Assembly (NCBI GenBank): GCA_003388555.1
Contig: QQVD01000015.1
Span: forward strand, 1 to 64,000
DNA length: 64,000 nt
Direction: 5' to 3'
From: Acidobacteriota bacterium
GTDB lineage: Bacteria > Acidobacteriota > Thermoanaerobaculia > Multivoradales > Multivoraceae
Shown: positions 19,124-41,027 of the stretch, one piece after another
Position numbering within the stretch: position 1 is the stretch's first letter
Layout of the letters: each line of letters starts with the position of its first letter
Program-made: the position numbers and the translations under genes
The notes under the pieces: generated by a model
The model's input: the letters and a program-made list of their open reading frames with translations, nothing else
Told to the model about the DNA's origin: nothing
Database searches by the model: none

Positions 19124-20652
19124 GCGCCGTGGGCACACTGCTGGCGGAGCTCTTCGCCGAGCCCGGGTCGGGGTGGATCGCGGCAGGGTTGCTGCTGCCG
19201 GTCGGGGCCGCCCTGCTCGTCGCTCTGCTCGGCTGGGTGGCGCGCTCAGCGAACCTGCGCGACGGCGCCACGGTCGTGGTGGGGGTCGCGAGCGCGGCGA
19301 CGGTGCTGCGGCTGTGGGGGCCGGTTTCGAGCGGCGAGCGTCCACGCTGGCTGCTCTGGAGCTTCGCGCCGGGCGGCCACCTGGAGTTCGTGGTGGAACC
19401 GCTGGGGCTGGTCTTCGCCACCGTCGCCAGCGTGCTCTGGGTGGTGACCTCGGTCTACGCCTTCGGCTACATGCGTGGTCACCACGAGGAGCACCAGACC
19501 CGGTTCTTCTGCTGCTTCGCCATCGCGATCGGCGCCGCCATCGGTGTCGCCTTCGCCGGCAACCTGCTGACCCTGTTCCTCTTCTACGAGCTGCTCACCT
19601 TCTCGACCTTCCCCCTCGTCACCCACCACCAGACGACGGCGGCGCGTCGCGCCGGGCGGGTGTACTTCGGCATCCTGCTGTCGACCTCGGTGGGCCTGTT
19701 CCTGCTCGCCATCGTGTGGACCTGGTGGCTCACCGGCACCACCGACTTCCGGCCCGGCGGCATCCTCGCCGGCACGTCGCCGGGAGTGCTGGTGGCGTTG
19801 CTCCTGCTCTACGGCTACGGCATCGGCAAGGCGGCGTTGATGCCGGCCCACCTGTGGCTGCCCGCGGCGATGGTGGCGCCGACACCGGTGAGCGCGCTGC
19901 TGCACGCGGTGGCGGTGGTGAAGGCGGGAGTGTTCTCGGTGCTCAAGGTGGTGACGATGATCTTCGGCGTCGACACGCTGCGCGGTGCGATGGACCGCGT
20001 GGCGTGGGGCGACGTGCTGATCTGGATCGGCTGCTTCACGGTGCTCTCGGCGTCGATCGTGGCGCTGCGCCAGGACAACCTGAAGCGACGGCTCGCGTAC
20101 TCGACGATCGGTCAGCTGGCGTACATCGTGCTCGGCGCGGCGGTGGCGTCGCAGATCGCGGCGCAGGGCGCGGCACTGCACATCGTCACCCACGCGGTGG
20201 GGAAGATCACGCTCTTCTTCTGCGCCGGCGCCATCTACGTCGGCGCTCACAAGACCGAGATCTCGACCATGCGCGGCATCGGCTGGCGCATGCCGTTCAC
20301 CATGGGGGCGTTCTTCGTCGGCTCGCTGAGCATCATCGGCCTGCCACCGCTGGCCGGCGCGTGGAGCAAGTGGGGGTTGATCCTCGGCGCCTCGCAGGCC
20401 GGTGAGTGGCTGGTCGTCGCGACCCTGGCGGCGAGCTCGCTGCTCAGCGTCGGCTACCTGTTGCCGGTGGTGCTGCAGGCCTTCGCGCCGCGGCAGGGTG
20501 GAGCGGCCGGGGGCGAGGATGCCGGAGTCCAGGAGGCGCCGCTGCTCTGCGTCGTGCCGCTGTGTCTCACCGCCCTGCTCTGTGTCGTGCTCTTCTTCTG
20601 GCCGACCCCCTTCACCGACCTGCTCAGCGGATTCGCGGGAGGCCCGCCTTGA
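19120..20652 (+). CDS. Proton-conducting antiporter subunit (NuoL/MrpA-N or MrpD-like), second copy
   Basis: This 510-residue NuoL/M/N-family protein differs from its upstream neighbour. The N-terminal SVYAFGYMRGHHEEHQTRFFCCFAIAIGAAIGVAFAGNLLTL is more NuoL/MrpA-like. The conserved helix-5 glutamate is in LFLFYELLTFSTFPLVTHHQ, and the lysines are in GIGKAALMPAHLWLPAAMVA and VVKAGVFSVLKVV. A later block reads RLAYSTIGQLAYIVLG. It may replace the N-terminal half of MrpA, since the C-terminal half is encoded separately at 15956. The stop TGA overlaps the TTG start of the next small gene. Confidence 0.92.
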   Translation: MSAVGTLLAELFAEPGSGWIAAGLLLPVGAALLVALLGWVARSANLRDGATVVVGVASAATVLRLWGPVSSGERPRWLLWSFAPGGHLEFVVEPLGLVFATVASVLWVVTSVYAFGYMRGHHEEHQTRFFCCFAIAIGAAIGVAFAGNLLTLFLFYELLTFSTFPLVTHHQTTAARRAGRVYFGILLSTSVGLFLLAIVWTWWLTGTTDFRPGGILAGTSPGVLVALLLLYGYGIGKAALMPAHLWLPAAMVAPTPVSALLHAVAVVKAGVFSVLKVVTMIFGVDTLRGAMDRVAWGDVLIWIGCFTVLSASIVALRQDNLKRRLAYSTIGQLAYIVLGAAVASQIAAQGAALHIVTHAVGKITLFFCAGAIYVGAHKTEISTMRGIGWRMPFTMGAFFVGSLSIIGLPPLAGAWSKWGLILGASQAGEWLVVATLAASSLLSVGYLLPVVLQAFAPRQGGAAGGEDAGVQEAPLLCVVPLCLTALLCVVLFFWPTPFTDLLSGFAGGPP

Positions 20653-21029
20653 GTGCCGACGCCAGCTCGAAGAACGGCGACCGTCGCCACCTCTGGGACG
20701 ATCCCAAGAACGTCCAGATCCTGATCTGGGTCTTCTGGGCCTGCTGCGCGATCGTCTTCGCTCTCGACTTCGCCTTCCACCGCCATCCGTCGTTCGAGGG
20801 TGAGACCCTGCCGATCGAGGAGATGGTCGGCTTCTACTCGATCTACGGTTTCGTCGCCTGCGTGCTGCTGGTGCTCGTCGCCAAGCAGATGCGCAAGGTC
20901 CTGATGCGCTCGGAGGACTACTACGGCGAGGTGCTCGGAGCGACCGCCGGCGAGCCGGACGGCGGCGCTCGGGACGAGGGCAGGGCGCCGGACGGCGAGA
21001 GCAGGGAAGGGCGCGATGGCGGCGACTGA
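20649..21029 (+). CDS. Small two-helix membrane protein of the Mrp-type operon
   Basis: This 126-residue protein starts at TTG 20649, overlapping the previous stop (TTGA). A hydrophilic N-terminus (RRHLWDDPKNVQ) leads into ILIWVFWACCAIVFALDFAF, then HRHPSFEGETLPIEEMVGF, then a second helix, YSIYGFVACVLLVLVAKQMR, and KVLMRSEDYYGEVLG. The C-terminus is disordered and charged. I recall similar DP-x-NV ... LDFxxHRH ... FYxxYGFVxCVxLVLxAKxxRKxLMRxEDYY proteins of unknown function near other Mrp-like clusters, but I know no assigned role. Being sandwiched with overlaps between two antiporter subunits, it is probably a structural or regulatory subunit of this complex (inference). Confidence 0.85.
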   Translation: MSADASSKNGDRRHLWDDPKNVQILIWVFWACCAIVFALDFAFHRHPSFEGETLPIEEMVGFYSIYGFVACVLLVLVAKQMRKVLMRSEDYYGEVLGATAGEPDGGARDEGRAPDGESREGRDGGD

Positions 21030-22785
21030 GACTCACGCGCAGTACGTCATGGGTGAGACGGTGCGGCTCCTCGATGGGCCGCTGCAGGCGCTGCTGCACC
21101 CGGCGCTGCCGCTGCTGGTGGCGGGAGTGGTCGCCGCGTTGGCGCCGCCTCGGCTGCGCAAGGCGCTGCTGGTCCTGGCGCCACTCTGGGGGGCGTGGAA
21201 CCTGCTCGGGTTCACGAGCGGAGATCTGGTTTCGGCCGAGCTGGCGGGGTTCGAGCTGATCCTGCTGCGGGTCGACAAGCTGGCCTTCCTCTTCGCACTC
21301 CTCTTCCACCTCGCGGCACTGCTGGCCGGCATCTACGCCCTGCACAGCGACGACCGGATGCAGCAGGTGGCCGGACTGCTGTATGCCGGCAGCGCGGTCG
21401 GCGCCGTGTTCGCGGGCGATCTCCTGGTGCTCTTCTTCTTCTGGGAGCTGCTGGCAATCACCTCGGTCTTCCTGATCTGGGCGCGACGCGAGACCGCCTC
21501 GACCCGCTCCGGCCTGCGCTATCTGCTGGTGCACATCGCCTCGGGCGTGCTGCTGCTGATCGGCGCCGCGCTGCACTGGATCGAGTTCGGCACCCTGGTC
21601 TTCGAGCGCATGGATCTGGGCAGCGCGGCGAGCTGGGTGCTGCTGCTCGCCATCGGCATCAAGTGCTGCTTCCCGCTGCTGCACACCTGGCTGGTCGACG
21701 CCTACCCCGCGGCGACCGAGCTGGGGACCGTCTACCTCGCTTCGTTCACCACCAAGACCGCGGTCTATGCGCTGGCTAGGGGCTACGAGGGCTGCGAGCC
21801 CCTGATCTGGATCGGCATGGCGATGGCGATGTTCCCGATCTTCTACGCGGTGATCGAGAACGATTTGCGGCGGGTGCTCGGCTACTCGATGATCAACCAG
21901 ATCGGCTTCATGGTCTGCGGTGTCGGGCTGGGCGCCGGCCTCGGGGTCAACGGCGCGGTGGCGCACGCCTTCAACGACGTGATCTTCAAGGGCCTGCTGT
22001 TCATGTCGATGGGAGCGGTGCTGCTGCGCACCGGCCGCATCAACGGCAGTGAGCTGGGAGGTCTCTACAAGACCATGCCCCAGACGGCAGGCCTGTGCAT
22101 GGTGGGCGCCGCTTCGATCTCGGCCTTCCCGCTGTTCAGCGGCTTCGTCAGCAAGTCGATGGTGATGACCGAGGCGGCGCACGAGGGGTACGTCGTGGTC
22201 TGGCTGGCGCTGCTCTTCGCGTCGGCGGGCGTCTTCCACCACGCCGGCATCAAGATCCCCTTCTTCGCCTTCTTCGCCCACGACTCGGGGTTGCGACCGA
22301 AGGAGGCGCCGCTGAACATGCGCGTCGCCATGGGCATCGCGGCGCTGCTGTGCATCGCCATCGGCTGCTTCCCCAACGCGCTGTACGCTCTGCTGCCCTA
22401 CGCCACCGACTACCACCCCTACGACACCACCCACGTGGTGCAGCAGCTGCAGCTGCTCTTCTTCTCGGCCCTGGCCTTCGTCACCCTGATGCTCACCGGC
22501 ATCTATCCGCCGGAGCTGCGCTCGACCAATCTCGACGTCGACTGGTTCGCCCGCCGTGCCGCGCCCCGCACCCTCAGAGTACTCGCCGCGGTCGGCGGCG
22601 CGATCTGGTACGGCGTGCTCGCCGGATTGGCGGACGTGCTGAAGGTGGTTCGTTCGGTGGTGCGCTGGCTGCACAGCCCCGCCGGACGTCTCGGCGAGCC
22701 GTGGCCCACCGGCACGACGGTGTTCTGGGCCGCGACCCTGCTGGGTCTGCTGCTGCTCTTCAGCTACCTGGGCTCGGCGCTGTAG
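21016..22785 (+). CDS. Proton-conducting antiporter subunit D (MrpD/NuoL-like), third copy
   Basis: This is the third large NuoL/M/N-family subunit, 589 residues. Recognisable pieces are the helix-5 glutamate in [60 protein letters not shown] with the conserved lysines, [40 protein letters not shown], and a C-terminal extension of two extra helices ending [15 protein letters not shown]. It overlaps the small gene upstream by 14 bases and runs 26 bases into the 3' end of the convergent sensor-kinase gene. It ends the operon. It is probably a further proton channel module of a complex-I-like antiporter. Confidence 0.92.
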
Positions 22786-28759: not shown

Positions 28760-29518
28760 TTACGACACCGCCCGTGCCGCCTCGGCGACGAGCCGCGGCA
28801 CGCTGCGCGCGATCGCCCGCCAACGACTACCGCCGGCACGCACGAAGCGCTGGTTGAGCTCCAGCTCGATGCCGAGGTAGCGAGGGCCGAGCCGCTGGCG
28901 CAGGCTCGTGGTCAGCCCGTCGTCGACGCCGCGGTACGGCTCGTTCTGATCGACCCGCAGCGGGCGGCGCAGCAGCTCGACCTCCTCGAGGCGGCGGCCG
29001 ATCTCGTCGGCGAGCGCCTGCTCGGCGGCGCGCTCCGGATCGAAGAGCACCGCGAACTCGTTGCGGCGTCGGTGTCCGCGGAACACCGGCGTGAAGGTGT
29101 GCCACGACAGGTGCACGACGCGGTCCTGGCGCTCGAGCAGGCGCTCGACGCGCCCGGTGAGTGCGCTCCGGTGTGGACGGTAAACGCGTTCGATCAGGAG
29201 CTGGCGCTCGCGCGGCGGCAGCGACCGGGCCAGCTTCGAGAAGACCTCCGGGTTGTCGAGCGACCTGTTGAGGTCGATCAGCAGCCGGGAGGTGCGGCAG
29301 ACGAAGGGCCGCACGCCGAGGACCTCGGCGCATCGCTGCGCCAGCTCGAGAGATCCCGGATCCCAGCCACGGTGGCTCTCGAGCAGGCGCTCGCGGCCGG
29401 CGAAGGTCGCCGCCCAGCGTGCAGGGATGCGGTTGCCGGCGTGCTCGGCGCTGACCACGATCTCGGCACGGTCGGACCTCCCGGCAGGGCGCCGCGCCCC
29501 GCCGGGGGTCGGCGCCAT
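28760..29518 (-). CDS. N-formylglutamate amidohydrolase-like zinc hydrolase
   Basis: This 252-residue protein is of the N-formylglutamate amidohydrolase superfamily (COG3931-like). Metal and active-site segments are VSAEHAGNRIP (Glu25-His26), SHRGWDPGSLELA (His49, Asp53), LLIDLNRSLDNP, YRPHRSAL and LSWHTFTPVF (metal His). These enzymes are zinc amidohydrolases cleaving N-acyl or peptide-like amides. I start at ATG 29518 because upstream codons are unrelated. It is the last of four co-directional genes with gaps of about 44 bases: C39-like peptidase, RLAN ATP-grasp, GCS2, and this. That set is a known amidoligase neighbourhood, so it probably trims or recycles the ligated product rather than acting in histidine degradation. 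Confidence 0.88.
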   Translation of the reverse strand: MAPTPGGARRPAGRSDRAEIVVSAEHAGNRIPARWAATFAGRERLLESHRGWDPGSLELAQRCAEVLGVRPFVCRTSRLLIDLNRSLDNPEVFSKLARSLPPRERQLLIERVYRPHRSALTGRVERLLERQDRVVHLSWHTFTPVFRGHRRRNEFAVLFDPERAAEQALADEIGRRLEEVELLRRPLRVDQNEPYRGVDDGLTTSLRQRLGPRYLGIELELNQRFVRAGGSRWRAIARSVPRLVAEAARAVS

Positions 29519-29562
29519 GGTGGAGGCCTGTCGCCGCCGCGGCGAGGAAGCGGGCACGTGCC

Positions 29563-30840
29563 TCAGACCAGGAGGCGGTCGTCCTGGGTGCAGCGGGCCA
29601 GCTCGCTCCACACCTCGTGCAGTCGCGAGCGGGACGGCGCGGCGCCGGTGCGTTCGAGGATGCGCGAGGAGAGCGTGCCGCGGCTGGTCAGGACGTCCAG
29701 GGGCGCCTCGAAGGTGCGCGCGTCGATCAGGTTCTCGTCGAGTCCGATGGCGACGAGATGGCGCCACAGCTCGCCCGCCGGCACCGGGTTGCGGAGGCCG
29801 AAGTGGCGCAGGTAGTCGGGTGCCTCGACCGCCGTTCGCTCGCCTTCGCGGATGCTACGGAGCAGCAGCTCGGCGAGGGGCTCGGTGGCGGCCTGCTTCT
29901 GGGCCGCGAACGGGGTCCAACGCTCGGCGACCAGCAGCTCCAGAGCCGCGACGGTGGCCGCCGCGATCGCCAGGTCGGCGAGCGGGCACTCCTGGGAGTC
30001 GATCACCCGGATCTCGATGCTGCCTCTGCCGAAGCGGGCGATGGCGCCGCGTGAGTTCAGGAACTCGTCGCGCAGAACGCCGTCCGGATCGTGTGGAGCG
30101 ATCGCTTCGAACAGAGGCTGGAAGATCTGCTCGTCGTACGAGGCCTCGTCGAATACCGGCTCCGGCACGATGGCCGCTGCCACCTGGGGCACCCGCTTCG
30201 AGTTGTGGCGGTAGACCTCCATGCGGTAGTCGAGCATGCCGGTGGGGCGGCCGTCGGCGATCGGTGAGCTGGCGGCCAGCGCGGGCAGCAGCGGCAGCAC
30301 CAGACGGATCGCCGCGTGCAGCCGGCCGAACTCCTCGTCGCCCCGGAACGGCAGGTTCAGGTGCATGCTCTGCAGGTTCGACCAGCCGTGTCCCTGGCAC
30401 GAGAAGATGCGGTCGTAGGCCTCGTAGACGGCGCTGTACTCGTGCGGCCAGAGCACCGTCTCGCGATGCGGGTCCATCCACGGATGCATCGCTCCCGGCA
30501 GCAGCCGCGCCTGCATCGCGCCGGCCAGCTCGTTGGCCCGTCGCACGCTGTCTCGCCACTGGCGGTGCAGAGCCGGCAGGCGCTTGACCGGATCGGCGAG
30601 GGGCGCGGTGGTCTTCAGCTCGAGGACGTGCAGCACCAGCTCGTTCGACCACGAGACGTCGCCCAGCTCCACCTCGCTGACCAGCTCGCCGGCGGCCGCC
30701 TCGAGCAGCCGGTCGACCTGCGGCCTGACCTCGAGCGACTCGCCGTCGACCAGCATGTACTCGACCTCGACCCCGACGGCGTCGAAGAGGCCGAGTGAAG
30801 GCCTCTCGGCTTCGGGACTCGGATTCGGCTCGTCGCTCAT
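29563..30840 (-). CDS. GCS2-family carboxylate-amine ligase
   Basis: This 425-residue protein is of the glutamate-cysteine ligase 2 (YbdK/COG2170) family, a glutamine-synthetase-fold ATP-dependent ligase joining a carboxylate to an amine. It has GVEVEYMLVDGESLEV at the N-terminus (metal-binding glutamates), NELVLHVLELKTTAPL, LPGAMHPWMDP, the His-rich QSMHLNLPF motif, DYRMEVYRHNSKRVPQV, and the C-terminal SIEIRVIDSQECPLADLAIA. ATG 30840 overlaps the stop of the upstream ATP-grasp gene (TGATG), so translation is coupled. With a second ligase directly upstream, it probably makes a gamma-glutamyl-type or other amide-linked compound. The substrate is not deducible. Confidence 0.92.
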   Translation of the reverse strand: MSDEPNPSPEAERPSLGLFDAVGVEVEYMLVDGESLEVRPQVDRLLEAAAGELVSEVELGDVSWSNELVLHVLELKTTAPLADPVKRLPALHRQWRDSVRRANELAGAMQARLLPGAMHPWMDPHRETVLWPHEYSAVYEAYDRIFSCQGHGWSNLQSMHLNLPFRGDEEFGRLHAAIRLVLPLLPALAASSPIADGRPTGMLDYRMEVYRHNSKRVPQVAAAIVPEPVFDEASYDEQIFQPLFEAIAPHDPDGVLRDEFLNSRGAIARFGRGSIEIRVIDSQECPLADLAIAAATVAALELLVAERWTPFAAQKQAATEPLAELLLRSIREGERTAVEAPDYLRHFGLRNPVPAGELWRHLVAIGLDENLIDARTFEAPLDVLTSRGTLSSRILERTGAAPSRSRLHEVWSELARCTQDDRLLV

Positions 30841-32411
30841 CACCCGTTCTCCGGTCGACTGGCCTGGCCGGCGGCACGGGCCCCGTTTCCCCTGGCCGGC
30901 GCCTCGGCGCCGGCGCGTTGAGGGCCTGCCGAGACGGCGCCGCCGATCCGCCGCTCCAGCCTCTCGACGAAGTACTCCAGCAGGCGGCGGTAGAGGCCGT
31001 CGCCGAGCACGCCGTCCTCCGACCCGCCGTCGAGGTTGGGGTTGTCATTGACCTCGATCACCAGCGGGGTGCCGTCGACCTGCTTGATGTCGACCCCGTA
31101 GAGGCCGTCGCCGATCAGGTTGGCGGCGTCGAGCGCGGTCCTCACGACCTCGGACGGCGCCTCGTCGACCGGGATCGTGTCGACCGAGCCGTAGCTCGGC
31201 CGCGCTTTGCCGTACTGCGCGATCTGCCAGTGACCTCTGGCCATGTGGTAGCGGCACACGTAGAGCGGCTTGCGGTCGAGGATGCCGACGCGCCAGTCGA
31301 AGTCGGTCGGGCGGTAGGCCTGTGCGATCACCAGGTCCGACGCCTCGAGGAACCGCTCGGCGCCGGCGCGCAGAGCCTCCTCGTCGTCGAACCGCTTGAC
31401 GCCGAGCGAGAAGGCGCTGTCGGGCAGCTTGAGGATGCAGGGCAGGCCGAGCACCTCCTTGATCGTCTCGACGTTGTCACGGTGCACGATGAGGGTCGGC
31501 GGACAGGGGATCTTGTGACGGCGCAGCAGCTCGGCGAGGAAGACCTTGTTGGTGCAGCGGATGATCGACTGCGGATCGTCGACCACCACCATGCCCTCGG
31601 AGGCGGCGTAGCGGGAGAAGCGGTAGGTGTAGTGGTTGACCCCGGTGGTGACGCGGATGAACAGCGCGTCGAACGAGGTCAGGCGGGAGAAGTCGTCGAC
31701 CTCGATCAGCTCGGTCTCGAGATCCATCGCGTCGGCGACCCGGCGCAGTCGCCGCAGCGCCTGTTCGTCGGACGGCTTCTCCTGTTCCTTCGGCTCGACC
31801 AGGATCGCCAGGCTGAAGCGCGGAGCCGGCCGGGGTCGGGGAGCGCGCTGGCGCTTGGTGAGATGGTCGCGGGCCGCCTCGACGACGAAGCCGCGGTGGT
31901 GCTCGGGCACCTCGTGGGCGCCGATCAGGCGCAGCCCGGTGAGCTCCCAGTTGTCCTCGATGCGGCGGAAGGTCGTGCGCAGGAAGGGAGCCGGGAACAG
32001 GTTGTGGATCTGGCGTGCCAGGCGGTCGTAGGTCTTGGCGACGTTGCGCCCGAAGTAGATGCTGAGCTCGAAACGCTCCGAGGCGAGGCGCTTCAGGCTG
32101 GTCTGGATCAGGCGGTCGAGGTCGTCCGGCACGGCGCGCACCAGAGCCCGGTTCTTGAGGTCCTGGATCGTCTGGATGCTCGGTTGTGGATGGTGACCTC
32201 GCGCTGCGGCCAGCAGGGAGACGTAGTAGCCCTGGCTCTGGTAGCGGTAGGAGCGGCAGAGGTTGAGCACCCGGAGGCGGCGCGCCGCGGCGAAGCGCGG
32301 CTCGGTCAGGTAGGCCTGCGCGGTGACGACCTCGACCTCAGAGGAGCGGGCGACGTCGTGGATGCTGGTCGGCCAGCTGTCGGGAGAGTCGAAGACGAGG
32401 AGGGTCTTCAT
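30840..32411 (-). CDS. RimK-like ATP-grasp ligase with RLAN N-terminal domain
   Basis: This 523-residue ligase has an N-terminal RimK-like ATP-grasp-associated (RLAN) domain over residues 1-190, including VFDSPDSWPTSIHDVARSSEV, CRSYRYQSQGYYVSLLAAARGH and TFRRIEDNWELTGLRLIGAHE. A RimK-type ATP-grasp domain follows at about 205-490: VDDPQSIIRCTNKVFLAELLRRHKIPCPPTL, PCILKLPDSAFSLGVKRF, and GLYGVDIKQVDGTPLVIEVNDNPNL with the Mg-ATP Asp, Glu and Asn. RimK relatives add amino acids to carboxylates. The disordered C-terminus is Ala/Arg-rich. It lies 43 bases after the C39-like peptidase and is coupled to GCS2. It probably catalyses one of two successive amide bond formations (inference). Confidence 0.92.
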   Translation of the reverse strand: MKTLLVFDSPDSWPTSIHDVARSSEVEVVTAQAYLTEPRFAAARRLRVLNLCRSYRYQSQGYYVSLLAAARGHHPQPSIQTIQDLKNRALVRAVPDDLDRLIQTSLKRLASERFELSIYFGRNVAKTYDRLARQIHNLFPAPFLRTTFRRIEDNWELTGLRLIGAHEVPEHHRGFVVEAARDHLTKRQRAPRPRPAPRFSLAILVEPKEQEKPSDEQALRRLRRVADAMDLETELIEVDDFSRLTSFDALFIRVTTGVNHYTYRFSRYAASEGMVVVDDPQSIIRCTNKVFLAELLRRHKIPCPPTLIVHRDNVETIKEVLGLPCILKLPDSAFSLGVKRFDDEEALRAGAERFLEASDLVIAQAYRPTDFDWRVGILDRKPLYVCRYHMARGHWQIAQYGKARPSYGSVDTIPVDEAPSEVVRTALDAANLIGDGLYGVDIKQVDGTPLVIEVNDNPNLDGGSEDGVLGDGLYRRLLEYFVERLERRIGGAVSAGPQRAGAEAPARGNGARAAGQASRPENG

Positions 32412-32454
32412 CTGAGCAGATCGATGATGGTGGCGAGAGGTTCTGGCGAGCCTG

Positions 32455-33168
32455 TCAGGCGGTGCCCGTCGGAGGCTCGAGCACGATCAGGTTGGCGTCG
32501 AAGGTGAGCACGCCCAGGTAGAGGGCGGCGAGGAAACGATACTCCGCCACCTCGTAGATGAGGGCGCCGAAGGGATTGGGGGCGTAGGGGTCGGCGAGGG
32601 TGACCGTCTGCCTCTCGGGCGAGCGTGCGAGCAGCACGACGAAGTGGCCGGAGCTCTCGCCGAGGACGTCGTCGGGAGTGGTGTCCTCGAGCTCACGGGG
32701 GATCCGGTACAGGTAGGTGGCACACAACCCGACCAGAACAGGTCGGCTCCCCTCGAGCAGGCTATCGATCAGGGCGCCGTCGAGCTCGTCCTGACGCACG
32801 GTGCCTCCCGCCTCCAGGTAGTTGCGGTAGGCGGCGCTGGCGACCTGCACGCGAGGGCGCGGCTTGACCGCCTGCTGAGCCTCCAGCTTGGCGATCAGGG
32901 CGTCGCGGTCGAGGTGCGCCCAGGTGGGGTCGAAGAGTTGGATGTTGTAGGTGTACAGAGTCGCCGAGAAACCGCGGCCCAGGGCGTGGGTGGCGAGCAG
33001 CACCCCGAGGGTGCCGCCGCTGTCGAGGGGGCGGACCTCGCGGATGAGCTGCTCGAGCTCGATCTGGAGGCCGTAGTGCCGGTAGACCGCGTGCAGCGAA
33101 GTCGGTCCGCAGGTCACCTCGTCAGGCTGGGCGAGGATCTCGAAGGATCCGGTCGACGGGGGATTCAC
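32455..33168 (-). CDS. C39-like cysteine peptidase of the amidoligase operon
   Basis: This 237-residue soluble papain-fold protein is of the C39-like group. The probable catalytic triad is Cys20 ([16 protein letters not shown]), His175 (SSGHFVVLL) and Asp193 ([10 protein letters not shown]). No signal peptide, membrane helix or ABC domain is present, so it is not a bacteriocin-exporter type C39. The start is GTG 33168 without an obvious ribosome site; no better start precedes the Cys motif. It heads the operon with the RLAN ATP-grasp and GCS2 ligases. It could be a protease, an amidase or a transglutaminase-like acyl transferase acting on the ligase product. Confidence 0.86.
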
Positions 33169-33370
33169 CGGCGTGGTGGGCGGGTTGGCTCGGGCGCGCG
33201 CTGCCGAGACGATACGCCGAAAGCGTCGGTCGCGCCATCGTCCCCGCAGCGACCGCCTGTCGGCACGTGGGGACGTGACACACTACGCCGGAAGCCCGAC
33301 CTGGCACCTGACCACCGCAGGTCTCCACTCGCTGGTGGTCGCCCGATCGTCGACGACTCCGGGAGGTCCG

Positions 33371-35383
33371 ATGGAAGAGCACGAGGCCCGCTACGGCATG
33401 CACGGTCGAGCACTGATCGTCGACCTCGGAGACGGCGGCAGCCGGGTCGAGGAGATCCCGGCCGACGTCTACCGGCGCTTCCTCGGCGGCTACGGTCTCG
33501 GCGCCTGGCTGATGATGAAGCACTTCCCCGAGGGCGCCGACGCCCTCGCGCCCGAGGCCTGCTTCGCGGTCTGCTCGGGGCTGCTCACCGGGGTCCGCAC
33601 TCCGTTCTCGGGCCGGATCCAGATCTGCGGCAAGTCGCCGCTCACCGGCACCTGGGCCGACTCCAACTCCGGTGGCAGCGTCGCGATCCACCTGCGCAAT
33701 CAGGGCTTCGACGCACTCGTCGTGCGCGGTCGCGCCAGTCAGCCCAGCCTGCTGGTCATCCGCGACGGTGCGGTGACGATCGAGCCGGCGGGCGACCTGT
33801 GGGGGCAGGAGATCCCCGAGACCTTCGACGAGATGCAGCGCCGCTACGGCACCAAGCGCTCGGTGGGGGTCTCGGCGATCGGGCCGGCCGGCGAGGGCCA
33901 GGCGCGCATCGCCTCGGTGATGAACGACCGCTACCACGCCTTCGGCCGCCAGGGCTTCGGCGCCATCTACGGCAGCAAGAACCTCAAGGCGATCGTCATC
34001 GCCGCGGGCGACGATCCGATCCGGATCCACGACGAGACCGCCTTCCGCGCCCTCTGCGACCGGGTGAACCGCGAGTACAAGAGCGACATCGGGCCGTTGA
34101 TGCGCTTCCTGGTCTGGTTCGCCAAGCCGAAGCGCTACCTCGGCTTCGTCTACCAGGCGTTCGCCAAGCTGGGCATGAAGATCGAATCGCCGCAACCGGC
34201 GATGCGGCAGCTGTGGGCCGACCGGGGCACGACGGCCGCCGTCGCGCTGTCGGTCGAGAACGGCGATGCGCCGATCAAGAACTGGACCGGGGTCGGCCCG
34301 CGCGACTTCCCGCTGTCGAAGAAGGGCTACAAGCTCGACGGCGCCGAGGTCGACAAGATCCTGACCAAGAAGCTGAGCTGCGGCGACTGCCCGGCGCCGT
34401 GCAAGGGCATCGTGGGGATCAAGAAGCGCGGCCTCTCCGACGTGCGCCGACCCGACTACGAGACCATCGTCGGCTTCGGCGCCAACATCCTCAACGACGA
34501 CCTCGAGCTGGTCACCGCCTGTCACGACGCCTGCAACCGCTACGGAATGGACGCGCTGAGCAGCAGCGCCACCCTGGCCTGGGTGTGCGAGCTGATGGAG
34601 CGTGGGGTGATCACCGCCGCCGACCTCGACGGCGTCGACATGCGCTGGGGCAACGGCGAGGCGGCGCTGGAGCTGACCATCAAGATGGGAACCGGCGAGG
34701 GTTGCGGCGCCTGGCTGCGGCACGGGTCGGCGCTCGCGGCGCAGCACGTAGGGCGCGGCTCGGACGAGTATGCGGTGCACGTGCACGGCCAGGAGCCGGC
34801 GTACCACGACACCCGCTTCACCTCGCTGATGGGCGTGACCTACGTCGCCGACCCCACTCCGGGACGACACACCGCCGGCTCCGCCTCCTGGCAGGAGACC
34901 TTCGGCGTCGGTTTCCCGCTCTCCGAGGCCGCTCCGAAGTCCGAGACCAAGGTGTCGTGGAAGGGCACCAAGGGCAAGGGCGTCGCCCAGGCCCACTACA
35001 GCAACGCCCACCAGGTGCTCAACGGCCTCGGCCTGTGCATGTTCACCGGGCTCACCGGCGGCCTGCCGTGGCTCGACATGGTCAACGCGCTGACCGGCTG
35101 GAAGATGACCGAGACCGAGCTGCTCGAGTGCGGCGAGCGGATCCAGAACCTGCGCAACGCCTTCAACGTGCGCGAGGGCATCACGCCGGCCGACTTCACC
35201 CCGCATCCGCGCATGCTCGGCCAGGGCGACGGCCACCTCGACGCGGGGCCGCTGAAGGGCGTCACGGTGCCGCTCGACGAGCTGAAGAACGACTACTACG
35301 CCGCCATGCACTGGGATCCGCGTACCGGGAGGCTCGCCGCCGAGCGTGCCGAGTACCTCGGCATCGGCGACCTGGTGAGCTGA
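33371..35383 (+). CDS. Aldehyde:ferredoxin oxidoreductase family tungsten enzyme
   Basis: This 670-residue cytoplasmic tungsten-bis-pterin oxidoreductase (AOR family) would oxidise an aldehyde, or reduce an acid, with ferredoxin. The N-terminal domain has [41 protein letters not shown] and [16 protein letters not shown]. The [4Fe-4S] cysteines are C337-x2-C340-x3-C344 (CGDCPAPC) and C556 (GLGLCMF). The pterin-binding acidic motif [13 protein letters not shown] (388-398) is present. ATG 33371 is preceded by GGGAGGT. The enzyme is common in anaerobes and unusual beside aerobic P450 and acyl-CoA dehydrogenase genes. A MoaD/ThiS gene two genes downstream would serve cofactor synthesis. Which AOR subfamily it belongs to is not settled. 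Confidence 0.94.
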
Positions 35384-35385
35384 GG

Positions 35386-36759
35386 GTGGCGCCGCCAGCG
35401 CCGAGGGCCATCCTCGGAGGCCTCCTCGTGACGCTGGTGCTGGCCGGCTGTCGGGTCGAGCCGGAGGAGGCGCCGGCGGCGGGCTCCGGGAGCGCGGCGG
35501 GGCTCGACGGACTGACCCGGAGCGCGGCGGAGACGACGGTGCGGCAGGTGGTGGGCGACGTCGACCCGCGCACCGCCGAGGTGCAGCCGACCGCGGCCCT
35601 GCCGCGCCAGCAGCTGCGCGCGATGGCGTACACCGCCGGCACCTTCGATCCCGACGCCGAGCTCGAGGGCGTGCTGCTGCACGACCACGAGCGCGCCTGG
35701 CCCGGTCTCAACTTCTTCACCTCCCGCGACCTGCCGGCGGCCTTCCTGATGGACATGGACGGCCGCATGGTGCACCGCTGGAGACGGCGCGGTGGCGGCT
35801 GGCAGCACGCCGAGCTGCTGCCCGACGGGCAGGTCATCGTGCTGGTGCGCGACCAGGCGATCTTCCAGGTCGACGCGGCGTCCGAGATCGTCTGGCACAC
35901 GCCTCTGCGGGCGCACCACGACCACTCACGCTCGTCCGACGGTCGCATCTTCGTGCTCACCAACCGACTCGAGGAGATTCCCGAGATCCATCCGCGTCAC
36001 AAGATCCTCGCCGACTACGTCACGGTGCTGTCGGCTCAGGGAGAGGTGCTCGAGGAGATCGGGTTGATCCCGCTGCTGCGTCGCTCGCCGATCGCCGCTC
36101 TTCTGCCCTACGTGGCCGATCTCGACCTGACCCGGGAGGGCGAGGCGCCGGAGGACGTCGAGATCGACTACCTGCACGCCAACCACATCGAGATCTTCGA
36201 CGGCTCGGTCCCCGGAGAGCTCTACCGCTCGGGTCTGGCGCTGCTGTCGCTGCGGCAGATCAACACCATCGCCATCGTCGACCTCGAGACCGCCGAGGTG
36301 CTCTGGTTCTGGGGCCCGTTCAACCTGGTCCGGCAGCACCATCCGACGCTGCTGCCCGATGGCAACCTGCTGGTCTTCAACAACCGGCTGAAGACCTCCC
36401 AGATCGTCGAGGTCGATCCGCGCACCTTCGACGTCGAGTGGACCTACGAGGACGGGGAGTTCTTCTCGCTCCTGCGCGGCAGCAACCAGCGTCTGTCCAA
36501 CGGCAACACGCTGATCACCGAGTCGGACACCGGCTACGTGTTCGAGGTCACCGCCGAGGGAGACGAGGTCTGGCGCTTCGCCAATCTGCAGGTGGACGAC
36601 AAGGGCGTGCGGAGCGCCATCTGGCGCATGGTGCGCTTCGCGCCCGAGGAGCTGCCGTTCGTGACCGGGCCCGACGCCGGCTCGCGGACGCCGGTCGAGG
36701 CGGACCAGGGTCAGGGAGGAGAGCCTCGCGATGAGCTGGCTGGATCGACTTCGCGGTGA
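35386..36759 (+). CDS. Arylsulfotransferase (ASST)-like secreted lipoprotein
   Basis: This 457-residue exported protein has a lipobox, LVTLVLAGC (Cys22), after a short signal sequence. The mature part matches arylsulfotransferase/PQQ-like six-bladed propellers: [75 protein letters not shown], and [24 protein letters not shown]. The His-rich clusters could host the active site; PAPS-independent ASSTs use a catalytic His. The start is GTG 35386, two bases after the AOR stop. The last 29 bases overlap the MoaD-like gene, so this is the middle of a tight three-gene operon. The role in tungstoenzyme biology is unclear. Confidence 0.85.
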
Positions 36760-37045
36760 ACGTCGCCCCACGATCCGCGTCCGCGTGCTGCTGCGCGGGC
36801 GGATCGGCGAGGGCTGGCACGACGTCGACCGCACCTTCCGGCTCCGCGAGGGCACGACGCTCGCCGGCCTGCTCGACGCGGCGGAGAAGAAGGGCGTGCC
36901 GCTGCGCGCCGCGATCGCGGACTCGCCCCACCTGCGCGAGACGCTGATGCTCAACGGCGAGCGCTGCGCAGTCGACGACAACCGCGATCGCGTACTCGAG
37001 GACGGGGACGAGGTGTACCTGCTGGCACCGGTCGCCGGTGGCTGA
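36731..37045 (+). CDS. MoaD/ThiS-family sulfur carrier protein
   Basis: This 104-residue beta-grasp protein begins with a basic stretch of about 15 residues, then [73 protein letters not shown]. The C-terminal Gly-Gly is the thiocarboxylate site of MoaD/ThiS proteins. AOR-family genes are often accompanied by such MoaD homologues, presumably for tungstopterin synthesis. It overlaps the ASST-like gene by 29 bases and has GGAGGAG ten bases upstream of its ATG. It is longer than MoaD (about 80 residues) at the N-terminus. Confidence 0.9.
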
Positions 37046-38466: not shown

Positions 38467-38492
38467 GATCCGCGCGGGAGGTCTCAGACGGC

Positions 38493-38759
38493 ATGGAAAT
38501 CAAGAACAAGACCAGGAAGCCGCTGGTCGTACCGCTCCCGGGCGGCAAGAAGCTGCACCTCGGCCCGCTGGCCACCGGTCAGATCTCGCCGCACGCGAAG
38601 GACCACCCGCCGCTGGTCAAGCTCGTCGATGCCGGTCAGGTGGAGATCGGGCAGGGCCACGATGCGCATGCCGCCGAGGGGCGTGCCAAGGGCGGCGAGA
38701 TCGAGGGGCCGCAGGTGCGCGCGCCGCAGAAGAACCTGCGCCGCAGCGGCGAGCGCTGA
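38493..38759 (+). CDS. Small conserved-looking protein of unknown function
   Basis: This 88-residue soluble protein starts at ATG 38493 with GGGAGG about 14 bases upstream. The N-terminal half, MEIKNKTRKPLVVPLPGG then KKLHLGPLATGQISPHAK and DHPPLVKLVDAGQVEI, looks like a compact beta-rich fold. The C-terminal 25 residues are charged and probably disordered. The PLPGGKKLHLGP phrase looks constrained, so I consider it genuine, but I cannot assign a family. It lies between the DUF418 gene and the four-PAS kinase on the same strand. Confidence 0.7.
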   Translation: MEIKNKTRKPLVVPLPGGKKLHLGPLATGQISPHAKDHPPLVKLVDAGQVEIGQGHDAHAAEGRAKGGEIEGPQVRAPQKNLRRSGER

Positions 38760-38903
38760 GCGCGCCCGAGGCTCGGTCCGCCCCCCCGAGGAGCGGGGGC
38801 GGGCTATCATCGTCCCGTTGGACTCCGGCTGGGCGATGGCTGCGAGGAGGGGAGCTGTCGCCGGGATGCGGGGGGTCCGCACTTCCCGAGAGTGTGACCG
38901 GAG
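38760..38903. other. Gap before the two-component pair
   Basis: This 144-base gap contains a ggctatcatcgtcccgttggac stretch that is locally AT-richer and could hold a promoter. The sequence ccggaggtgatcg spans the GTG start at 38904 and closely matches an anti-16S Shine-Dalgarno. That raises the possibility that translation really begins at ATG 38961. Confidence 0.3.
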
Positions 38904-41027
38904 GTGATCGCGGACGGAGTTGCCGAGCCCGCGCTCACCTGCGTCGTGAGGCCTGTGCCGATGCCGACGAGTCAGCGCGCCACCCTGGCGGTCGACCAGG
39001 AAGGCAGGATCCTCAGCGTCAACGCCGCGGCGACTTCGCTGCTCGGCTACCGGCAGGAGGAGCTGATCGGCGAGTCGGTGGAACGCCTGGTTCCCGAACG
39101 CCATCGACAGAAGCACGCGCGCCTGCGTGCCGGCTTCTTCGAGTTCCCGGCCCAGCGCCTGATGGGCGCCGGTCTCGACGTCTTCGTGCGGCGCAAGGAC
39201 GGCGAGGAGATCCGGGTCGAGATCAGTCTCGAGCCGCTCGAGGGAGCGACTGCGCGCCGGGTCCTCGTCAGCCTGGTCGAGGCGCGAGGTCGTGAGCGTT
39301 CGCAGGAGCGCTTCAGGCAGGCGGTCGAAGCTTCGCCCAGCGCGATGTTGATGGTCGGTGGCGACGGCGCGATCACCATGGTGAACCGCCAGGCAGAGGA
39401 GCTGTTCGGCTACGACCGGATGGAGCTGCTCGGTCGACCGGTGGAGTTGCTGATGCCGGAGCGGCTGGCCGACGGACACACCCGGCTCCGTGACGCGTTC
39501 TTCGCCAATCCGGTGGCGCGGCCGATCGGTACCGGCCGCGACCTGGTGGCGCAGCGTGCCGACGGTCGGGTCTTCCCGGTCGAGATCGGCCTCGAACCGA
39601 TCGACCTCGGGGTGGAGACCCAGGTGCTGGTTTCGGTCGTCGAGATCACCGAGCGCAAGCGTTCCGAGGATCTCTTCAGGCTCGCGGTCGACGCCTCCCC
39701 GAGCGCGATGCTGCTGGTCGACGAGTCCGGAGCGATGACGATGGTGAATCGCCGGGCCGAGCTCCTCTTCGGTTACCAAAGGAGCGAGCTCCTCACCCGA
39801 CCGGTGGAGATGCTGGTGCCGGAGCGATTCCGAGCCGCGCATCCGGAGCTGCGGCAGGGGTTCCTCGACCAACCCAGCTCGCGTCCGATGGGAGTCGGTC
39901 GCAATCTCTTCGGACTGCGCAGCGACGGGACCGAGGTGCCGGTGGAGATCGGTCTGAATCCGATCACCACCTCGGACAGCCAGCTGACCCTGGTCTCGAT
40001 CATCGACATCACCGAGCGCAAGCGCTCCGAGGAGCGCTTCGAGCTCGCCGTCGAAGCCTCGCCGAGCGCGATGCTGCTGGTCGACGAGTCCGGAGCGATC
40101 AACCTGGTCAACCGTCAGGCGGAGGAGCTGTTCGGCTACGACCGAGGCGAGCTGCTCGGCGAGCCGGTGGAGATGCTGGTGCCGGAGCGGTTCCGCCACT
40201 CACACCCCGGTCTCAGGGAGGGGTTCCACCGCAGTCCGAGCTCGCGTCCGATGGGTGCGGGCCGCGACCTCTACGGACTGCGCCGCGACGGTCGCGAGGT
40301 ACCTGTGGAGATCGGCCTGACCCCGATCGCCACCGCGGCAGGGCCGCTCGTCCTGGCCTCGATCATCGACATCACCGAACGTCGGGAGGCCGAGGCGCGC
40401 CTGAAACGCTCGCTCGAGGAGAAGGAGGTGCTGCTGCAGGAGGTGCACCACCGGGTCAAGAACAACCTCGCCGCGATCGGCAGCATCTTCTACCTCCAGT
40501 CGACCGTGACCCGGGACGACGAGACACTGCGCATCCTCCAGGACTGTCGCGACAGGGTGCGTTCGATGGCCCTGGTGCACGAGCGCCTCTACCGGTCCGA
40601 GGATCTGGCCCGGGTCGACTTCGCCGACTACACCCGCGAGTTGGTGCGGGAGCTGGTGTCCAGCCACCGCCCGGTCTCCGAGCGCGTCGCGCTACGTCTC
40701 GACCTCGACGAGGTGGTGCTGGAGATCGACCGCGCCATCCCGGCCGGATTGGTGCTGACCGAGCTGGTCTCGAATGCCTTCAGACACGCCTTCCCGAACG
40801 ACCGGAGCGGATCGCTCCAGGTGGCTCTCCGCAGGGTCGGGGAGCACGGTTTCACGCTGGAGGTCGCCGACGACGGTGTGGGGCTGTCGGAAGACTCCGG
40901 CGATTCGCGAGGTTCTCTCGGCCTGAGGCTGGCGCATTCCCTCGCGACCCAGCTCGAAGGCCGCTTCGAGCTGAGAAGGGGTGCGTCCGGTGTCGAGGCC
41001 AGCCTGATCGTGGAGGAGCCAGAGTGA
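38904..41027 (+). CDS. Four-PAS sensor histidine kinase (HisKA_2 type)
   Basis: This kinase has up to 707 residues and is cytoplasmic, with no membrane helices. Four PAS domains lie at roughly residues 24-130, 138-260, 266-385 and 390-505. The last three open with the near-repeat SPSAML[ML]V-x2-[DS]G-[AE]-x-[TN]-[ML]VNR and share VPVEIGLxPI and VSIIDITERK blocks. The HisKA_2 phosphoacceptor is QEVHHRVKNNLAAIGSIFYLQS (His515/His516). The HATPase has LTELVSNAFRHAFP and VADDGVGLSED. The start is GTG 38904; ATG 38961 is an alternative. Its TGA overlaps the next gene's GTG (GTGA), so it is coupled to a receiver-containing hybrid kinase. The PAS input ligand is unknown; no haem or flavin Cys motif was seen. 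Confidence 0.92.
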   Translation: MIADGVAEPALTCVVRPVPMPTSQRATLAVDQEGRILSVNAAATSLLGYRQEELIGESVERLVPERHRQKHARLRAGFFEFPAQRLMGAGLDVFVRRKDGEEIRVEISLEPLEGATARRVLVSLVEARGRERSQERFRQAVEASPSAMLMVGGDGAITMVNRQAEELFGYDRMELLGRPVELLMPERLADGHTRLRDAFFANPVARPIGTGRDLVAQRADGRVFPVEIGLEPIDLGVETQVLVSVVEITERKRSEDLFRLAVDASPSAMLLVDESGAMTMVNRRAELLFGYQRSELLTRPVEMLVPERFRAAHPELRQGFLDQPSSRPMGVGRNLFGLRSDGTEVPVEIGLNPITTSDSQLTLVSIIDITERKRSEERFELAVEASPSAMLLVDESGAINLVNRQAEELFGYDRGELLGEPVEMLVPERFRHSHPGLREGFHRSPSSRPMGAGRDLYGLRRDGREVPVEIGLTPIATAAGPLVLASIIDITERREAEARLKRSLEEKEVLLQEVHHRVKNNLAAIGSIFYLQSTVTRDDETLRILQDCRDRVRSMALVHERLYRSEDLARVDFADYTRELVRELVSSHRPVSERVALRLDLDEVVLEIDRAIPAGLVLTELVSNAFRHAFPNDRSGSLQVALRRVGEHGFTLEVADDGVGLSEDSGDSRGSLGLRLAHSLATQLEGRFELRRGASGVEASLIVEEPE

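Follow-up and report, generated by a model that had tools for sequence, protein, structure and literature searches.

Amide ligases linked to hydrolases often signal a metabolite or a modification under regulated turnover. Among the closest described systems is the RimK/RimB pair of RpsF polyglutamylation which, as described in PMC11957791, joins an ATP-grasp ligase to a peptidase able to reverse or adjust the ligase's action, as the operon analysed here may also do. RimB, however, is an aspartic peptidase, whereas the operon has two ligases and two hydrolases. The methylofuran polyglutamate ligases MyfA and MyfB are likewise ATP-grasp enzymes that make amide chains on a small molecule, according to PMC8141765. 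GCL, GshB and PCS offer another parallel, the operon having one member each of the GCS2 family, the ATP-grasp fold and the papain fold, but its GCS2 falls below all GCL cut-offs and the operon gathers its genes, including an FGase, in one operon.

Operons of ATP-grasp, COOH-NH2-ligase and GNAT genes are credited by later papers to Iyer et al. 2009, and the likeness of those amidoligase neighbourhoods to the present operon is judged here through the descriptions given in the citing papers. Together with the fact that RLAN is already a named Pfam family, this makes the novelty attributed to the locus in a sequence-only reading too strong; the four-gene set is a further member of a type to which comparative genomics had drawn attention before. 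Pairs of RLAN with a GNAT-DUF3335 fusion (PF11814) are like the operon in the key residues of RLAN and in having a C39-like peptidase as a partner. They differ in carrying a GNAT where the operon type has GCS2 and often FGase, the C39 of the operon being a separate gene. To our knowledge no product is known for the four-gene set, and a search of openly licensed papers found none on the set or its product.

Gene order and protein families of the operon

The window (the whole stretch of 64,000 nucleotides that was analysed) contains a four-gene operon in the order C39, RLAN ATP-grasp, GCS2 and FGase (Table 1). The earlier description of four adjacent and co-directional genes is borne out: all ORFs lie on the minus strand, they are tightly packed, and the Pfam families agree. 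From the coordinates, the gap between C39 and RLAN is 43 nt, and the G+C content is 70.1% both in the operon and in the window. Partial overlaps had also been proposed. The one between RLAN and GCS2 is real, since the start of GCS2 shares bases with the stop of RLAN (GTGATG). In contrast, the large GCS2/FGase overlap is probably an artefact of choosing the longest ORF, because in-frame start candidates of FGase (GTG 29557 or ATG 29518) lie directly past the GCS2 stop, the Pfam match starts only at residue 102 of the longest-ORF version, and in relatives the FGase homology starts close to where GCS2 ends, with a median of -13 nt and 44 of 47 pairs no more than 60 nt away. The FGase start is hence likely to be 29557 or 29518 rather than 29767.

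Table 1. Features of the operon, in positions of the window; the last row gives residues of the RLAN protein
Feature	Position	Strand	Length	Basis or remark
C39-like papain-fold cysteine peptidase or amidase	32455..33168	-	237 aa	Pfam, model, residue conservation
RLAN + RimK/LysX-like ATP-grasp ligase	30840..32411	-	523 aa	Pfam, fold search, residue conservation
GCS2-family carboxylate-amine ligase	29563..30843	-	426 aa	Pfam, residue conservation
FGase (PF05013, N-formylglutamate amidohydrolase-like) hydrolase	28760..29557	-		Pfam, residue conservation; start likely
RLAN protein layout	RLAN domain about 31-178; pre-ATP-grasp + ATP-grasp about 199-489	-		RimK/LysX-like

The RLAN protein is a member of the RLAN ATP-grasp family, with a PF14401 domain (165.5 bits for a cut-off of 25; residues 31-178) placed N-terminal to a RimK domain (PF08443; 30.0 bits, residues 288-464). 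Its fold-search rows span residues 196-489, and for this ATP-grasp half the best fold matches are LysX (Z 28.0), ArgX (Z 27.8) and RimK (Z 27.2); glutathione synthetase 1gsa gave a Z of 22.2 over 268 residues at 2.8 A. NCBIfam does not identify it as RimK, the scores being 55.4 vs 143.4 bits for TIGR00768 and 37.3 vs 331 for NF007764. A derivation of the RLAN domain as a decayed second ATP-grasp copy was considered and rejected: the order of helices and strands is similar, but the best probability in profile comparison was 8%. In the RLAN alignment, A4, which contains the window and all 88 surveyed loci (the best 80 of at least 589, plus 8), residues K289, K328, R374, D441, E453 and N455 are invariant in 89 of 89 rows.

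The GCS2 protein belongs to its family with 97.0 bits for PF04107 (cut-off 21), and its profile finds YbdK 1r8g and the plant enzyme 9ufc, weakly. By NCBIfam it is not a glutamate-cysteine ligase (best 61.8 vs 332 bits; YbdK subfamily 59.5 vs 176.4). The corresponding alignment, A5, holds the window and 72 of the 77 GCS2 loci, the short L049, L066, L068, L074 and L083 being left out; in these rows, from the best 80 of at least 589 plus 8 and the window, E26 and E28 are found in 72 of 73 (one gap) and E75, R207 and E277 in all 73. Inactive ligase sites, which had been considered as a weakness of the reading, are not what residue conservation indicates for RLAN (89/89) or for GCS2 (E75 and E277, 73/73). 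FGase scores 91.1 bits for PF05013 (cut-off 28.9), which places it in that family, and its profile matches 2odf (Atu2144) at 2.2e-38. Residues E24, H25 and H139 are conserved in 43 of 43 rows of A6, formed by the window and 42 of the 50 FGase loci (best 80 of at least 589, plus 8) once L024, L078, L085 and five low-scoring or cut sequences were left out.

The C39 protein lies barely above the Pfam cut-offs of 22 and 24, with 24.6 bits for PF03412 and 24.5 for PF13529. Its model (pLDDT 94.9) matches the ComA/PCAT1 peptidases at a Z of about 16, as seen for the ComA peptidase 3k8u (Z 16.3, 135 residues, 1.9 A), and a tie with these C39 peptidases was seen for the primitive phytochelatin synthase 2bu3, at Z 15.7 over 163 residues and 2.6 A. 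Pfam gave no match to phytochelatin synthase (C83) at 0.001. The predicted triad is C20-H175-D193, plus Q14. In alignment A3, built from the window and 71 of the 73 loci with C39 (best 80 of at least 589, plus 8; the split-frame L041 and the cut L085 were left out), C20 is kept in 71 of 72 rows (one gap) and H175 and D193 in all 72. The protein thus has the papain-like fold and the Cys-His-Asp triad of a C39 peptidase. The ABC exporter fusion typical of bacteriocin or quorum leader peptidases is absent, C39 being a stand-alone protein of 237 aa without a transporter.

Recurrence of the set and its exceptions

To ask how widely the four genes occur together, 88 RLAN loci were surveyed, the best 80 of at least 589 plus 8 more; because 80 of them are the best matches, the sample is biased towards the type of the window. 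A contig end lies close by in 11 of the 88 loci, which are marked '?'. Beside RLAN, GCS2 was found in 77 of these 88 loci, C39 in 73 and FGase in 50, the FGase count including a partial match at a contig end (L081, 33 bits) and a weak one (L072, 171 bits). All four genes are together in 48 of the 88, so that the sets co-occur widely, contrary to the possibility that they would rarely do so elsewhere. In the same loci (best 80 of at least 589, plus 8) the partner genes above 100 bits are co-directional in 199 of 199 cases, and this recurrence excludes a chance arrangement. The median gaps between neighbours, taken up to where the homologous domain begins, are +2, -13 and -13 nt.

The set occurs in loci of at least 15 named phyla, cultured strains included. 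Thiobacillus thioparus DSM 505 (L025) and Pontibacter flavimaris (L051) carry all four genes; in Blastopirellula marina DSM 3645 (L020), the 10 kb examined contained no window-type FGase. On an RLAN tree obtained by a quick method there are 25 phylum changes, for a minimum of 14 and a shuffled mean of 47.1; the distribution among phyla thus appears clustered yet scattered on this tree, and horizontal transfer is possible. Between the four families, distance matrices show correlations of r 0.52 to 0.69, a level reached by 0 of 1000 permutations; this is only consistent with joint inheritance, as the correlation does not control for species relatedness.

Among 60 relatives, RLAN is present in 6, including the own genome. 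The same 6 carry the GCS2 type (>500 bits), 23 other genomes giving weak matches only, of at most 34.6 bits. C39 (>280 bits) is found in 5 of the 6, with a 21.9-bit match in one further genome, and FGase in 3 of the 6 and in none of the remaining relatives among the 60. Across 297 genomes of the phylum, RLAN occurs in 4, and GCS2 and C39 in 3 each, all within those 4, the GCS2 and C39 searches having scored part of the first-look candidates (in the own genome, 6 of 12 for GCS2 and 9 of 25 for C39). In the fourth RLAN genome of the phylum, a GNAT-C39 (DUF3335) fusion adjoins RLAN. Physical linkage is not required: in Nitrosospira multiformis Nl18, RLAN has no partner within 10 kb, and C39, GCS2 and FGase are clustered elsewhere in the genome.

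RLAN stands without the other three in 8 of the 88 loci (best 80 of at least 589, plus 8). Of these eight genomes, the Nitrosospira has the three elsewhere and another, G074, has a GNAT-DUF3335, while genome-wide searches of the other six found neither window-type GCS2 nor window-type C39; one of the six, G345, gave two weak DUF3335 matches (25.9 and 25.1 bits). These genomes suggest that RLAN may have a separate job of its own. In the same sample (best 80 of at least 589, plus 8), C39 is absent beside RLAN-GCS2 in 7 loci, and searches of six of the genomes concerned yielded one full copy elsewhere, one 53-residue fragment and nothing in four. FGase is absent despite room in 20 GCS2-bearing loci. 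One of the places lacking the usual FGase (L039) holds a divergent gene of the family and another (L094) a cyclophilin-like gene; no consistent replacement gene was found in the FGase-less loci. Window-type FGase is restricted to loci with GCS2 (50 of 50 FGase loci; best 80 of at least 589, plus 8), although, as the divergent gene of L039 indicates, FGases of other types may be missed in GCS2-less loci.

On Azospirillum and Tistrella plasmids and in G074, RLAN adjoins a fusion of a GNAT with a C39-like peptidase of the DUF3335 type. DUF3335 is a profile relative of the C39 of the window (92.8%, E 3.9e-7) and was found in 0 of 7 tested genomes with C39-RLAN-GCS2. At 28 RLAN positions picked because they are conserved in A4, the residues are the same as in the window in L116 and L118, outside that alignment, and in L016, inside it. 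For two plasmid RLANs (L117 and L119), no gene of the three partner types was found within 6 kb, and no DUF3335 was found in the record of L119.

No fifth consistently conserved gene was found in the flanks of 89 loci (best 80 of at least 589, plus 8 and the window), hence no C1-coenzyme cluster is seen here, unlike for MyfA/MyfB. The largest extra families occur in 15 and 9 of these 89 loci and, judged by one representative each, encode a histidine kinase and an ABC ATPase; their distance and strand vary. No conserved exporter adjoins the set: ABC ATPases are found in 9 loci only, and in the 8 of these other than the window they lie more than 1 kb away from RLAN. Likewise, no conserved small carrier protein of the LysW kind was found within 1.5 kb and, among locally encoded peptides, the ORFs of 20-150 aa in that range form no family that is present in more than 4 of 70 loci. 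The largest such families (4 of 70) come mostly from four Pontibacter relatives, or lie upstream or downstream depending on the locus, and resemble shadow ORFs. Gamma-glutamyl-polyamine metabolism, a known pathway that could have accounted for the locus, was not matched: apart from the four, the largest families of the flanks are generic signalling and ABC ATPase proteins, and none of the four proteins is assigned to an enzyme of that pathway by NCBIfam.

Proposed chemistry and competing explanations

Family assignments and conserved residues support the view that one operon unites two distinct families of ATP-dependent amide ligases with two families of amide hydrolases. The sequence-only reading had gone further and described a closed make-and-break set. 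The two ligase and two hydrolase families and their conserved active-site residues uphold the make-and-break part, but the set is not an obligate closed one, since FGase is missing in many loci, C39 in some, and RLAN is sometimes alone. We tentatively propose a cytosolic two-step make-and-break amide pathway in two nested pairs, of which we infer, rather than observe, the chemistry, substrates, step order, product and purpose. RLAN would activate a carboxylate as an acyl phosphate and couple it to an amine, so that a short peptide-like compound results, and the C39-like papain-fold enzyme would cleave or transfer the bond so made. GCS2 would place a gamma-glutamyl cap, or a similar acyl one, on the free amine of the product, and the FGase-like hydrolase would strip this cap. 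A cytosolic site is suggested by the lack of a signal peptide by eye.

The fold matches of the ATP-grasp half also invite a reading as protein tagging, which we consider unlikely, in which RLAN would extend the C-terminus or a side chain of a protein with amino acids, in the way that RimK modifies RpsF, GCS2 would modify them, and C39 and FGase would trim. Indeed LysX, ArgX and RimK, the closest folds, are by their entry titles solved with or known for the protein acceptors LysW and RpsF, and RimK/RimB is described as a characterised make-and-break pair (PMC11957791). In Pseudomonas RimK, PMC10092738 gives S7, R8, S14, R64, S68, R189 and N262 as poly-Glu contacts and R211 as shaping the site. 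R64, R189 and N262 correspond to R253, R374 and N455 of RLAN, invariant in 89 rows (best 80 of at least 589, plus 8 and the window). However, S68 corresponds to a variable position, G257 in the window, R211 to Q396 (Q in 87 of 89 rows from the same sample of the best 80 of at least 589, plus 8 and the window), and H215 and R216 to a variable stretch beside a gap; the HMM alignment with RLAN does not cover S7, R8 and S14. The RimK pocket is thus only partly kept in a protein that scores below the RimK cut-offs, and the lack of a LysW-like small carrier protein conserved within 1.5 kb also argues against tagging.

A cycle like that of glutathione and phytochelatin, in which GCS2 would first make a gamma-glutamyl dipeptide, RLAN extend it in the manner of glutathione synthetase and C39 act on the tripeptide like phytochelatin synthase, would agree with GCS2 being the family named for glutamate-cysteine ligases, with its weak matches to YbdK 1r8g and 9ufc, with the fit of 1gsa to the ATP-grasp half (Z 22.2) and with the tie of 2bu3 and 3k8u for the C39 model. 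We nevertheless hold it to be quite improbable: GCS2 stays far under the cut-offs of all glutamate-cysteine ligase models (at best 61.8 bits for a required 332), LysX and RimK match the ATP-grasp half better than 1gsa, and a GNAT replacing GCS2 is easier to reconcile with capping than with an initial step. As for a RiPP or graspetide-like pathway, C39 has the fold of leader peptidases, the role it would have there, and graspetides are described as products of ATP-grasp enzymes (PMC8939145). Yet no short-ORF family is found in more than 4 of 70 loci within 1.5 kb, no exporter is conserved nearby, and C39 is not fused to one, so that this reading is disfavoured and has very little probability in our view. 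A small metabolite is a more likely product than a RiPP.

The finding of window-type FGase only with GCS2, together with the replacement of GCS2 by a GNAT beside the same RLAN, gives the proposed make-and-break pathway a concrete and testable reaction order. A possible, though on balance doubtful, form of it is a widespread and hitherto unrecognised cytosolic capped-peptide metabolite with a shared core made by RLAN and lineage-specific caps, glutamyl-type from GCS2 or acyl from the GNAT; FGase would serve as a dedicated decapping enzyme and the papain-fold enzyme would cleave the core. If true, this capped-peptide system would be a turnover cycle comparable to that of glutathione and phytochelatin, present in at least 15 named phyla.

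Recurrence and composition of the operon

The sequence-only reading had placed the four enzymes in one operon, and this arrangement stands (see table). The GCS2 start overlaps the RLAN stop in the window sequence. The large overlap proposed between GCS2 and FGase was probably a product of choosing the longest ORF; most likely the FGase starts at 29557 or 29518, directly behind GCS2.

Coordinates of the operon, of its neighbours in the window and of GNAT-DUF3335 genes at other RLAN loci
Feature	Coordinates	Strand or direction	Remarks
C39-like peptidase	32455-33168	-	1st in transcription order; Pfam barely above cut-offs
RLAN + RimK-like ATP-grasp protein	30840-32411	-	2nd in transcription order; Pfam
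GCS2-family ligase	29563-30843	-	3rd in transcription order; Pfam
FGase-family hydrolase	end 28760, likely start 29557 or 29518	-	4th in transcription order; Pfam
Two genes, 449 + 229 aa	26698-28726	co-directional	directly downstream of FGase; no Pfam match at 1e-5
Aldehyde ferredoxin oxidoreductase	33368-35383	divergent from operon	AFOR_N + AFOR_C
Arylsulfotransferase-like protein	about 35386-36759		after aldehyde ferredoxin oxidoreductase
Small ThiS-like protein	36731-37045		after arylsulfotransferase-like protein
571-aa ORF	38487-40199	-	no Pfam match at 1e-5
Proton-antiporter / NADH:quinone oxidoreductase-type membrane subunits	17570-22785		PF00361 in two ORFs
GNAT fused to DUF3335 C39-like peptidase	L016:7715-8848		adjoining RLAN
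GNAT fused to DUF3335 C39-like peptidase	L116:4724-5932		adjoining RLAN
GNAT fused to DUF3335 C39-like peptidase	L118:4653-5921		adjoining RLAN

An RLAN alignment was run against species genomes, and the best 80 of 589 confirmed loci, together with 8 from further genomes, were tallied for gene content with cleaned profiles. Because only the best 80 were retained, the sample leans towards the operon's own RLAN type; many of the genomes are metagenome bins. Among these 88 loci, the best 80 of 589 included, the complete set was present in 48, and C39-RLAN-GCS2 in 15 others, plus 7 whose contig stops before an FGase could be seen. RLAN-GCS2 only was found in 5, RLAN-GCS2-FGase without C39 in 2, C39-RLAN only in 1 (plus 2 near a contig end) and RLAN without the other three genes in 8 (6, plus 2 near a contig end), giving totals of 77 for GCS2, 73 for C39 and 50 for FGase. 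All 199 partner genes scoring above 100 bits run in the same direction as RLAN. A phylum was named for 77 of the 89 RLAN rows (the same loci plus the window), 15 phyla altogether, each with at least one C39-RLAN-GCS2 locus. The operon, which is of a kind that comparative genomics had already noted, is real and recurrent, and its active sites are conserved, as described below.

Clustering of flanking ORFs yielded no fifth gene family in more than 15 of these 89 loci, and no short-ORF family near RLAN in more than 4 of 70. The two largest flanking families, with one representative each being a histidine kinase and an ABC ATPase at varying distances, look generic; the aldehyde ferredoxin oxidoreductase, arylsulfotransferase-like and ThiS-like families are not among the larger flanking clusters of other loci. 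By eye, the 449-aa gene downstream of FGase carries a cytochrome c-like CxxCH motif.

Co-occurrence and incomplete sets

Counting its own genome, RLAN occurs in 6 of 60 relatives and operon-type GCS2 in exactly those 6, with hits elsewhere of at most 34.6 bits; under a random draw of 6 this match would have a chance of 2e-8, although the genomes are not independent. Of the 6, 5 contain C39, which otherwise gave a hit of 21.9 bits in one non-RLAN genome, and 3 contain FGase. Across the phylum RLAN is present in 4 of 297 genomes. GCS2 and C39 are present in 3 of 297 each, all inside those 4; these two counts were made at E 1e-20 and cover only some of the first-look candidates. The fourth RLAN genome, G074, has neither GCS2 nor C39 at E 0.001.

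In the 88 loci, again including the best 80 of 589, operon-type FGase always accompanies GCS2 (50/50), and FGase is missing despite available room in 20 GCS2-bearing loci. Six of the 8 genomes with RLAN alone, several being incomplete bins, have no operon-type GCS2 or C39 genome-wide. Six RLAN-GCS2 genomes without C39 beside were searched for it: four lacked it, one carried a fragment, and one had the full gene at another position. The RLAN-alone loci and the gaps in C39 and FGase argue against a tidy four-gene system. In Nitrosospira multiformis Nl18, none of the partners lies within 10 kb of RLAN; C39, GCS2 and FGase are grouped at another site. Downstream of GCS2, where the usual FGase would be, one locus carries a divergent FGase-family gene (L039:12707-13504) and another a cyclophilin-like gene (L094:13064-13600).

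Active sites and the RLAN substrate

Judged by their residues, all four enzymes appear to be alive. Cys20 of C39 is kept in 71 of 72 rows (one gap) and His175 and Asp193 in 72/72; Glu75, Arg207 and Glu277 of GCS2 in 73/73; and Glu24, His25 and His139 of FGase in 43/43. RLAN Lys289, Lys328, Arg374, Asp441, Glu453 and Asn455, which we take from the ATP-grasp fold to bind ATP and metal, are present in 89/89. The predicted models are confident (pLDDT 94.9 for C39, 90.0 for RLAN). The structures nearest the ATP-grasp half are LysX (Z 28.0), ArgX (Z 27.8) and RimK (Z 27.2), against Z 22.2 for glutathione synthetase. The C39 model is nearest exporter peptidase domains (PCAT1 Z 16.6, ComA Z 16.3), and primitive phytochelatin synthase is on a par with these (Z 15.7, over more aligned residues). 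RLAN residues 1-190 have a predicted helix/strand order like that of the pre-ATP-grasp half; a common origin of the two was unsupported by profile comparison.

PMC10092738 gives S7, R8, S14, R64, S68, R189 and N262 as poly-glutamate contacts of Pseudomonas RimK, with R211, H215 and R216 shaping the site. In a profile alignment R64, R189 and N262 correspond to RLAN R253, R374 and N455, invariant in 89/89 rows; S68 aligns with a variable position, and S7, R8 and S14 lie beyond the alignment's ends. R211 corresponds to Q396 (Q in 87/89 rows), and H215 and R216 to variable positions adjoining a gap. The operon RLAN hence keeps three contact equivalents but differs at S68 and R211. Operon scores were far under the cut-offs of the NCBIfam RimK, GCL and YbdK models. 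Together with the partly kept site, this suggests that the RLAN substrate may well be other than poly-glutamate, and the kept arginines make a carboxylate-rich acceptor possible.

A second RLAN context and a proposed order of reactions

On two plasmids (Azospirillum, Tistrella) and in G074, RLAN adjoins a fusion of a GNAT with a DUF3335 C39-like peptidase; this is another setting in which the same ATP-grasp protein occurs. By profile comparison DUF3335 is related to the operon C39 (probability 92.8%); it was absent from all 7 tested genomes with the C39-RLAN-GCS2 set. At 28 RLAN positions picked for conservation, the three GNAT-DUF3335 loci are identical to the window, as is the solo RLAN of a Pseudomonas aeruginosa plasmid (L117); an Aeromonas protein (L119) differs. 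Glutamate/aspartate transporter genes and a gamma-glutamyltransferase lie near the solo RLAN on its plasmid record. From the GNAT-DUF3335 contexts and the identical positions, the RLAN step seems constant and the second amide-forming partner variable.

In other ATP-grasp operons, according to PMC4431377 from the amidoligase group, a second ligase may act on the product of the first, or a GNAT may cap it. By analogy, RLAN would form one amide bond and C39 would cleave that bond, while GCS2 would add a cap that FGase would take off. The model of the operon's chemistry is now sharper and testable.
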